The notes under the pieces: generated by a model | What the model was told of the DNA's origin: nothing | The model's input: the letters and a program-made list of their open reading frames with translations, nothing else | Database searches by the model: none | Origin: Flavobacteriia bacterium | Lineage (GTDB): Bacteria; Bacteroidota; Bacteroidia; Flavobacteriales; Schleiferiaceae | Length of the DNA stretch: 32,908 bases | Assembly (NCBI GenBank): GCA_013373425.1 | Contig: JABXHW010000058.1 | Location: 1-32,908, forward strand | Direction of reading: 5' to 3' | In this document: positions 31,582 to 32,832 of the stretch, in pieces | Layout: each line of letters starts with the position of its first letter | Numbering within the stretch: the stretch's first letter is position 1 | Made by a program: the position numbers and the translations under genes

Positions 31582-32532
31582 ATGAAGCTTCGTCTACTGA
31601 CCATCGCCGCAACAATTTCAGCGACACTCCTCTTTGTAGGGTGTCAAGAGGATCAAATAGAACCACAGAACAACGACGTTGAAGGTAGATATGAGCAAGA
31701 AGTCTTTTCAGCGGTTGTAATCGACAGTGCGGAATACGACACGGATGAAGGGTTGTGGATGGATATCTATCACCCTTCTGGGGATGCGTCCACCAATCGT
31801 CGATTGGTCATCCTTGGACACGGTGGTGCCTTTGTAGCTGGAAGTCGGAAGAATCCTTTGATGGTTGATTACGCGACTCGTTTGGCAAAGCATGGCTATG
31901 TGGTTGCAACATATGATTATCGCCTAGCGGGAGGAATAAACGTCATGTTAGATAGTCTTCAATCCCTGAACGTTGTAGCTCGTGCCATGAGCGACGCTAC
32001 TAACGCCATAGAGTTCCTCATTTCCTCTGCAACCTCTGGCAATCCTTTCGGACTTGACCCAGGTAATATAGTTCTGGGTGGTAATAGCGCTGGTGCTGTA
32101 TTGGCGCTTCATGTTGGACACATGGATGAAAGTGATTCATTGTCGGTAGGAATGAGTCAGGTTATGACCGCCCAAGGGGGTTGGGCTAGCCAGTGGAATC
32201 CAACCTCTGCTGGGCCAATTAAGGCCATTATATCGCTAGCCGGAGGTATTCACAAGACGCATTGGCTGAACAGTTACGGACCGCGGTTAATTATGGCACA
32301 TGGCACTTGGGACCCTGTTGTACCATACAGTTGCGGACACGTCATCAACAACACTCAAACAGCAACCATTCTCTGTGGAACCGCTCCTTTGACGAGTAAA
32401 AGTGAGGCACTCAATCTTGAAAACGAAGCACTCATTTTCCCCGAAATGCTTCATTGCCCTTGGAACGACAGCCAAGCCATCAACGATCAGCTATTCGATT
32501 ACCTCGTTCCTGAGCTGAATAAGGCGTTTTAG
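31582..32532 (+). CDS. Esterase-like alpha/beta hydrolase lipoprotein
   Basis: 316 residues. A lipoprotein signal peptide ends LLFVGC (lipidated C21), so the enzyme should face the periplasm or cell surface. The fold is that of carboxylesterase/BD-FAE-type hydrolases: oxyanion motif HGGAF (80-84), YDYRLAGG, the nucleophile S169 in GGNSAGA, D244 in AHGTWDPVVP, and H291 in EMLHCPWND, completing a plausible triad. An extracellular acyl-ester or carbohydrate-ester substrate is likely but not identifiable. It is probably co-transcribed with metG. The TAG stop lies six bases before the interrupted tRNA gene. Confidence 0.86.
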   Translation: MKLRLLTIAATISATLLFVGCQEDQIEPQNNDVEGRYEQEVFSAVVIDSAEYDTDEGLWMDIYHPSGDASTNRRLVILGHGGAFVAGSRKNPLMVDYATRLAKHGYVVATYDYRLAGGINVMLDSLQSLNVVARAMSDATNAIEFLISSATSGNPFGLDPGNIVLGGNSAGAVLALHVGHMDESDSLSVGMSQVMTAQGGWASQWNPTSAGPIKAIISLAGGIHKTHWLNSYGPRLIMAHGTWDPVVPYSCGHVINNTQTATILCGTAPLTSKSEALNLENEALIFPEMLHCPWNDSQAINDQLFDYLVPELNKAF

Positions 32533-32558
32533 AGTAAGGCCCCATAGTTCAATGGATA

Positions 32559-32659
32559 TCCCGATAGTAGAGGTGGTCCTATAGTTCAATGGATAGAATA
32601 GGAGTTTCCTAAACTCTAGATCTAGGTTCGATTCCTAGTAGGACCACCTCTTGTCGGGA
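32559..32659 (+). repeat. Inverted repeats framing the inserted tRNA
   Basis: TCCCGA (32559-32564) is complementary to TCGGGA (32654-32659), and AGAGGT (32569-32574) to ACCTCT (32646-32651). With the inner acceptor stem this makes a helix of 6 bp, an internal loop (TAGT against TG), then 13 continuous base pairs ending in the inner tRNA. The segment is too small for a group I or II intron and encodes no protein. Confidence 0.85.
32575..32646 (+). tRNA. tRNA-Arg(CCU), nested inside the interrupted tRNA
   Basis: A complete 72-base cloverleaf: acceptor GGTCCTA/TAGGACC, D-arm GTTC/GAAT around AATGGATA, anticodon arm GGAGT/ACTCT around loop TTCCTAA with anticodon CCT at 32608-32610, 4-base variable loop AGAT, T-arm CTAGG/CCTAG around TTCGATT, discriminator A. 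CCA is not encoded. It reads the AGG codon. The bases flanking it on both sides are complementary for another six pairs, so leader and trailer would be base-paired, which usually affects RNase P and 3' processing. Confidence 0.94.
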
Positions 32660-32724
32660 CTAAACCTTAGATGTAGGTTCGATTCCTACTGGGGCTACTA
32701 TTACAAGTGCGTGGGGGCGTGTGG

Positions 32725-32832
32725 ACGTAAGCACGTAATGCAAGTATTGAGTATCCAGTATCAACGTCGACACGCATGCACGCATGCACGCTCGCACGTA
32801 AGCACGTAATCCAAGTATTGAGTATCCAGTAT
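32725..32832. repeat. 37-base direct repeat (two copies) with GCATGCAC iterations between
   Basis: Copies at 32725-32761 and 32796-32832 differ at one base (ATGCAAG versus ATCCAAG). Each starts ACGTAAGCACGTAAT and ends GTATTGAGTATCCAGTAT. Between them, 32771-32791 contains ACGCATGC twice in tandem. No open reading frame or RNA fold is evident. The CAGTA core is shared with the heptamer array, suggesting one family of intergenic repeats. Confidence 0.85.

Follow-up and report, generated by a model that had tools for sequence, protein, structure and literature searches.

Organization of the nested tRNA locus

On direct reading of the sequence, positions 32538–32697 of the window (the 32,908-nt stretch of genome G000 analysed here) contain two Arg tRNA genes, a complete tRNA-Arg(CCU) and, split on either side of it, the 5′ and 3′ halves of another. 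The features of the locus are summarized in Table 1. An earlier sequence-only reading had described this anatomy and its coordinates, and both are confirmed. The inner tRNA is 72 nt long including the discriminator A; ARAGORN places its boundaries at 32575–32648. The acceptor strand of the outer 5′ part pairs with 32690–32696. The outer gene forms all of its acceptor pairs (7/7, one G-U) and all pairs of its T-stem (5/5), which bears out the 7-bp acceptor stem and good T-arm of the earlier description. The two 15-base identities between outer and inner genes noted there are present (32544–32558 with 32581–32595, and 32674–32688 with 32623–32637), and positions 22–34, which the interruption was said to replace, are indeed missing from the outer gene. 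The outer 3′ part and the inner gene also share direct repeat D3.

Table 1. Features at the nested tRNA locus of the window
Feature	Coordinates	Strand	Evidence
Alpha/beta-hydrolase gene (BD-FAE, Abhydrolase_3), upstream	31582..32532	+	Pfam; BLAST matches to L068, L069
Outer tRNA-Arg(CCU) 5′ part, positions 1–21, GGCCCCATAGTTCAATGGATA	32538..32558	+	21/21 identity to ordinary CCU tRNA of G016 (L036)
Insert left arm, 16 nt, TCCCGATAGTAGAGGT	32559..32574	+	Complementarity to right arm; perfect inverted repeat
Inner tRNA-Arg(CCU), intact	32575..32646	+	ARAGORN; Rfam RF00005, 69 bits; sole CCU tRNA found in G000
Insert right arm, 13 nt, CCTCTTGTCGGGA	32647..32659	+	Complementarity to left arm; end TCGGGA as in L234, L135
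Outer tRNA-Arg(CCU) 3′ part, positions 35–73	32660..32697	+	37/38 identity to L036

Beside the tRNA, the insert consists of the two arms only, and a GIY-YIG ORF is absent from it. The inner tRNA is separated from the outer 3′ half by the 13-nt arm alone, with no integrase gene there, as judged within the contig, which ends 211 bases downstream of the nested tRNA. The arms extend the inner acceptor stem through a perfect 13-nt inverted repeat (32569–32581 with 32639–32651), and in the predicted fold arms and inner acceptor form a single long helix. The fold of the 169-nt region has an energy of −65.7 kcal/mol (z = −4.62 against 200 shuffles), and shuffling the right side 200 times never gave pairing as good. 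The outer gene is reported in the window by neither ARAGORN nor Rfam at the gathering threshold. At the gathering score, Rfam gives RF00005 only across the whole window and no group I intron core in the insert. A group I intron in the tRNA-Arg(CCU) gene was thus rejected, with no Rfam match to one in the window.

A 37-nt direct repeat, 97% identical, lies just downstream of the nested tRNA at 32725–32761 and 32796–32832, near the contig end at 32908, and may mark the place where the assembly broke. An assembly chimera at the locus itself is unlikely, because the same nesting occurs in two other genomes (G002 and G010).

Identity and fate of the outer gene

The outer gene had been taken for a tRNA-Arg(UCU). 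Its halves are identical at 58/59 positions to the ordinary tRNA-Arg(CCU) of a family relative, G016 (L036), versus 30/59 positions to the intact UCU gene of G000 itself; the outer gene is therefore the old CCU gene, and the UCU assignment is rejected. Ordinary tRNA-Arg(CCU) genes in this family usually start with GGCCCC. The other tRNA-Arg genes of G000 are an intact UCU gene (L006, on G000:C31), CCG and ACG. The inner gene is the sole CCU among the tRNAs found in this genome (150 of 199 candidates scored, 26 matches; genome rated 96% complete).

Splicing of the outer gene in the window was also rejected. With 13 positions (22–34) absent, no joining of the window halves yields a tRNA, and removal of the insert does not restore a complete tRNA as removal of an intron of the BHB/EndA type would. 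The outer gene has the character of a tRNA pseudogene, being decayed and having an intact CCU gene nested inside it.

The upstream hydrolase gene provides a synteny anchor, since its BLAST matches L068 and L069 each have a tRNA-Arg(CCU) just downstream. In G001, of the same genus, an uninterrupted CCU tRNA follows the orthologous hydrolase gene. This is an empty site, and thus the empty allele expected for a homing element is found at the syntenic place. In G002, also of the same genus, the tRNA at this place is nested, the outer 5′ half is changed and the outer 3′ half is unrecognisable. In the inner tRNA of G002, changes in the acceptor and anticodon stems are paired, which preserves both stems, and there is one further change. 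A nested CCU gene is also present in G010, from a different genus of the family, where the outer gene is diverged yet recognisable. Across the family, 7/88 genomes match the search pattern and 3 of the 7 are nested; a stricter pattern, which misses G002, matches 2/395 genomes in a sample of the order.

The sequence-only reading had suggested looking for the arrangement in related genomes, where it is now found in G002 and G010. Its proposal of a dead copy disrupted by insertion agrees with the empty site in G001 and with the decay of the outer gene in a same-genus relative. Another of its proposals, excision and ligation to a UCU tRNA, is unsupported, because an intact UCU gene lies elsewhere (G000:C31) and the outer halves are decayed at the same-genus locus L030. 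These are the two observations that it had named as signs of a pseudogene. Judged by sequence comparison, the outer gene appears to be a dead remnant, because the CCU gene is uninterrupted in G001 and the outer 3′ half cannot be recognised in G002. Replacement of the outer tRNA by the inner one is well supported, and the inner tRNA would then be its functional substitute.

Recurrence in other bacteria and anticodon agreement

We searched a collection of species genomes for an Arg D-arm closely followed downstream by an Arg-type one and obtained 41 loci, which were classified by eye. Both outer halves are present in 22 of them, in Bacteroidota and Patescibacteria; L082 and L093 have the same sequence there, and L088 is apparently the record of G010 itself. 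Seven further loci have a 5′ half and an arm (L076, L081, L085, L090, L095, L106 and L112), seven have a 5′ tRNA fragment with arms that are not recognised (L073, L077, L084, L087, L097, L098 and L102), and five are chance or other matches (L074, L079, L083, L110 and L113). Computed scores cover the loci of this set other than L110–L113 and exclude the window. The inserts directly follow A21 or position 26, or lie within the anticodon loop or at 37/38. Arm ends like those of the window (TTCCGAT or TCCCGA with TCGGGA or TCGAGA) occur in the Bacteroidota loci L103, L104 and L109, and in L104 and L109 the outer 3′ half resumes at CTAAAC, as in the window.

A second scan was blind to isotype and looked for two T-arms too close together for tandem tRNAs, with the reversed pattern as control. 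Both scans cover inner and outer genes on the same strand only. Among 25 genomes preselected for a D-arm locus, the T-arm scan gave 8 matches in 7 genomes (reversed control 0). In the phylum of L078 (Candidatus Magasanikbacteria, Patescibacteria) it gave 17 matches in 16/239 genomes (reversed control 0); the centre of this set, G408, and also G421 had been chosen earlier for their nested loci. In 296 Bacteroidota genomes there were 6 matches in 5 genomes, versus 9 matches in 2 genomes for the reversed control, so there is no excess in this phylum. Here the window alone was taken as nested, the five other matches (four genomes) being judged on the match string alone. The nested arrangement is rare in Bacteroidota.

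The inner tRNAs at the T-arm matches are Gly, Glu, Pro, Thr, Ile, Leu, Cys, Gln and several Arg, and nested tRNAs with paired arms in Bacteroidota and Patescibacteria comprise Arg, Gly, Leu, Thr, Gln, Pro, Cys and Val. The outer and inner genes agree in anticodon. Twelve of the 25 T-arm matches could be scored (9 whole, 3 partial), and all agree (12/12; shuffles mean 2.0, maximum 9). Eight more look nested and have an unreadable outer anticodon (L115, L121, L124, L125, L126, L133, L135 and L136), while nesting is unsupported in five (L123, L129, L130, L131 and L134). Agreement is 6/6 in the 239-genome set alone, and 10/10 when L114 and L117, which re-find L086 and L080 of the Arg-specific scan, are set aside. 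Over all sets the anticodons agree in 32/34 loci, which were picked for readable sides, not at random, and read by eye; in L091 and L101 the outer anticodon differs from the inner by one base.

The outer genes are often well formed in Patescibacteria (e.g. L078, L082 and L107). A relic under free decay would not have to keep such form, and this counts against the replacement reading; it may reflect insertions that are often new, or a role that the outer fold still has. Several Patescibacteria inserts lie at 21/22, in the anticodon loop or at 37/38 of outer genes with full acceptor and T-arm pairing (L075, L078, L080, L082, L086, L107 and L108), as they would if the outer tRNA were still made, the inner one being excised as an intron or intervening sequence and the outer halves being ligated or used as a two-piece tRNA. 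We regard this as highly improbable. The window halves cannot give a tRNA, G002 has no recognisable outer 3′ half, the outer anticodon is changed in L101, additional palindromes break the outer halves in L096, L105, L107 and L111, and Rfam detects the inner tRNA alone in the window.

The genome of L111 and L120, G425 (Candidatus Falkowbacteria), was examined in depth. Of 41 ARAGORN tRNAs in the stretches examined, six or more are surrounded by remnants of a tRNA of their own type, as assessed by eye. Both outer halves are found for Arg-CCU, Gly-CCC and Leu-CAG, the 3′ half only for Ser-GGA and Ala-CGC, and the 5′ half only for Glu-CUC. The nested Arg-CCU exists alongside a separate ordinary Arg-CCU, which counts against the reading of these inserts as replacement elements.

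Arms and palindromes

Arm pairing was compared with shuffles in 22 loci picked, like those scored for anticodons, for readable sides. In 18 of these loci the pairing of the arms exceeds that of 98.5% of shuffles or more. Pairing falls short of significance in L031 (0.15; G010, of the window's family) and L128 (0.10), and L136 (0.05) and L109 (0.035) show weak pairing. When own arms are compared with arms crossed between loci, the median energies are −20.8 and −10.9 kcal/mol, and 11/22 loci fall below the 5% point of the crossed pairs; this contrast is smaller because palindrome families are shared between loci. The ends TCCCGA/TCGGGA recur in two phyla, and L135 (Glu) has the arm ends of the window and no nuclease.

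These data bear on the view that no element is involved, and that the nesting arose when a tandemly duplicated pair of tRNA genes was rearranged, one copy being broken around the other, intact one. Inner and outer genes are paralogous Arg tRNAs and the outer one decays in a relative, as such a chance pseudogene might. T-arm fragments beside intact tRNAs are also common in viral contigs, where in 56 of the 125 matches listed a predicted tRNA takes in the first T-arm and not the second. Simple duplication does not, however, nest a whole gene with complementary arms. The frequent pairing of the arms, their common ends in two phyla and the recurrence of the insertion points make this origin quite unlikely.

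A different possibility is that the inserts are mobile inverted repeats that carry DNA in their loop and have no homing nuclease; only carriers of the same tRNA would survive, and GIY-YIG genes would be separate passengers. Palindromes resembling the arms do recur in the genomes concerned. The G425 ends CCCCCACACC/GGTGTGGGGG, for example, enclose an empty hairpin, the nested Leu tRNA, the nested Gly tRNA (one mismatch) and small GIY-YIG genes. Further empty palindromes are frequent in outer genes, and the nuclease is absent at most of the nested loci read. Against this, random capture would rarely bring the same anticodon, yet nearly all readable loci agree, unless selection purged the others. 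Around one GIY-YIG ORF of G425 (L202) these ends form an exact inverted repeat of 19 nt, and one locus, L234, holds nuclease, arms and tRNA in a single insert. We therefore consider a nuclease-independent origin possible and rather doubtful.

Small empty palindromes lie just after CCTA (37/38) of outer tRNA-Arg genes in four genomes (L096, L105, L107 and L111); from their positions this looks like a target preference for TA|AG. G000 has 10 sites with hairpins of the TCCCGA type (reversed control 3); one larger repeat accounts, through its copies, for some of these, and no tie to the insert is established. Separately, TCCCGATACTTCGGGA occurs in similar surroundings at G000:C74 98, 1173 and 2206, about 1 kb apart, and at G000:C38 109872, and represents a repeat family of this genome.

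GIY-YIG nuclease genes at tRNAs

In L234, a 413-bp locus, a GIY-YIG gene lies inside a nested tRNA. The first 23 nt of a tRNA-Val are followed by TCCCGATTAATATAAA, a 91-codon GIY-YIG ORF (PF01541, E = 8.5e-17), an intact tRNA-Val(GAC), a tail ending in AATCGGGA and the remaining outer tRNA-Val. The arms are TCCCGATT/AATCGGGA, and the outer 3′ half restarts in the anticodon loop. L234 and the window have the same arm ends and break points within about two positions of each other; the nuclease is extra in L234.

Several GIY-YIG genes of G425 and G422 have remnants of a tRNA on one side and the complete tRNA of that kind on the other: L194 (Cys), L207 and L217 (Glu) and L216 (Ser). L199 (Gln) likewise has the nuclease at a same-kind tRNA, with the 3′ half beyond the nuclease. 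In L234, L226, L248 and L216 the nuclease frame enters the following tRNA gene, and in the first three of these the last residues of the protein are encoded by the 5′ part of the tRNA. In G425 and G422, which were picked for their nested tRNAs, 9 of 14 parsed small GIY-YIG ORFs have a tRNA within about 110 nt. The count excludes a spurious 31-aa frame (L202, + strand), L196 of G002, the unparsed L203 and the fragments L219 and L220.

Two GIY-YIG ORFs of G425 lie directly upstream of tRNA-Ile(GAT) (L139/L202, G425:C3) and tRNA-Tyr(GTA) (L140/L198, G425:C2). Both are bounded by inverted repeats, exact over 19 nt in L202, and the first nucleotides of the tRNAs (GGGCGCG and GGGGGCAGG) are repeated on the far side of the ORF.

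A random sample of the phylum gave 125 PF01541 matches in 39 genomes, and loci were obtained for 30, one per genome (25 small ORFs and 5 large). Seven of the 25 small ORFs have a tRNA less than 200 nt away, in each case on the same strand, where 0.9–1.2 are expected if 45–60 tRNAs per 0.9 Mb are assumed (P = 3e-5 to 2e-4). A cruder ORF search of the same sample, whose centre genome G408 had been chosen earlier for nested loci, placed 5/20 near a tRNA. None of the five large ORFs is near one. The other 18/25 small genes are not near a tRNA, which counts against the homing reading. The PF01541 matches of G000 are three only, in open frames of 448–603 aa, and count against a GIY-YIG origin of the window insert. 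The nested tRNAs encountered in Bacteroidota likewise bear no GIY-YIG gene.

Proposed mechanism

Our preferred reading, to which we give a probability of roughly 60%, is that a homing-type element, bringing a replacement tRNA with it, invades tRNA genes, and that the insert in the window is a derivative lacking the nuclease. A small arm-bounded insert carrying a complete tRNA-Arg(CCU) would have interrupted the resident gene for that tRNA. The inner tRNA would take over; its transcription would presumably start at the resident promoter and its excision fall to the usual tRNA-processing enzymes, while the outer halves would remain as a decaying leader and trailer. The fuller form, found in Patescibacteria, would be arranged as outer 5′ half, arm, small GIY-YIG gene, replacement tRNA of the same isoacceptor, arm and outer 3′ half. 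By analogy with SegB, the small GIY-YIG enzyme may cut the resident tRNA gene, and repair from a nuclease-tRNA donor may install the unit in the gap. If one side were repaired through tRNA homology, one outer half would be left, as in L207, L217 and L199; if neither were, both halves would be left, as in L234 and the window. The outer gene would then decay and collect other palindromes (as in L096, L105, L107 and L111), and the nuclease would be lost. Descent of the window insert from a GIY-YIG-bearing element is suggested by its likeness to L234. The insert could have lost its nuclease, been moved in trans or come from palindromic repeats independently of a nuclease.

More broadly, a tiny GIY-YIG gene and a whole replacement tRNA may form a new class of mobile element that enters the matching essential single-copy tRNA gene as a unit. 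Repeated rounds would lead to tRNA turnover by nesting, and nuclease-free nested tRNAs such as that of the window would be its fossils in Bacteroidota and Patescibacteria. We put this forward tentatively, at a little under even odds. Invasion of a single-copy tRNA gene would be survivable without splicing, because a whole tRNA of the same kind arrives too. Self-splicing and the restoration of one gene end are the known means by which elements persist in essential genes. If the proposal holds, a complete spare tRNA inside the broken one is a third solution; it would explain one route of tRNA gene replacement in evolution and offer a possible job for some of the small GIY-YIG genes of Patescibacteria. 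Such events may hide in genome annotations, because ARAGORN and Rfam reported the inner tRNA alone here.

Relation to known systems and viral sequences

Interrupted tRNA genes are known as archaeal and eukaryotic tRNA introns, sometimes at 37/38, and as split tRNAs. The window differs in that its outer halves do not sum to a tRNA and the insert is itself a tRNA. A description of the nested arrangement was not found in the open literature, subscription papers and preprints being outside the scope of the search. The accessible text of one article deals only with archaeal tRNA introns and CPR rRNA introns (PMC10714607).

According to the available part of its source, SegB of T-even phages is a free-standing GIY-YIG homing endonuclease in the tRNA region that cuts inside phage tRNA genes (PMC13096335). 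Its gene adjoins tRNA genes, as here, and the same text describes microhomology between the nuclease 3′ end and the tRNA 5′ end as well as nuclease-tRNA repeat units (PMC13096335). The system differs in being a phage tRNA cluster, and that text contains no report of a tRNA gene interrupted by a nuclease together with a replacement tRNA of the same anticodon (PMC13096335); moreover, the nuclease is absent from the window. Integrative elements of the SSV and pNOB8 types, as portrayed in the accessible sections of PMC3293823, target tRNA genes and restore one end, and resemble the nested inserts in that the insertion is made harmless by tRNA sequence brought along. They bring part of a tRNA and encode an integrase, whereas the nested inserts bring a whole tRNA, keep both outer halves and are about 100–350 bp long. 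In CPR bacteria, insertion sequences lie in rRNA genes, some with GIY-YIG ORFs outside introns (PMC11270868, main text). These are likewise short inserts in RNA genes of the same bacteria, but in rRNA genes; that main text does not use the word tRNA, and its available passages mention no replacement copy (PMC11270868).

In viral contigs, the Arg-specific nested pattern gave no match and the general T-arm pattern gave at least 120 stretches. Among the 125 viral matches listed, two (L268 and L293) have a fully pairing outer acceptor upstream. Each has a complete tRNA (Ile and Phe, respectively) in the anticodon region of another tRNA, and arms are not evident. The inner tRNA of L293 is Phe and its outer gene resembles Arg(UCU); the isotypes thus differ, and viral cases therefore look different from the bacterial ones. 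A phage origin was rejected on the lack of Arg-specific matches, on the small number of listed matches with a pairing outer acceptor and on the mismatched isotypes of L293. The GIY-YIG protein of L234 has three partial relatives in viral contigs, over 30–36 residues.
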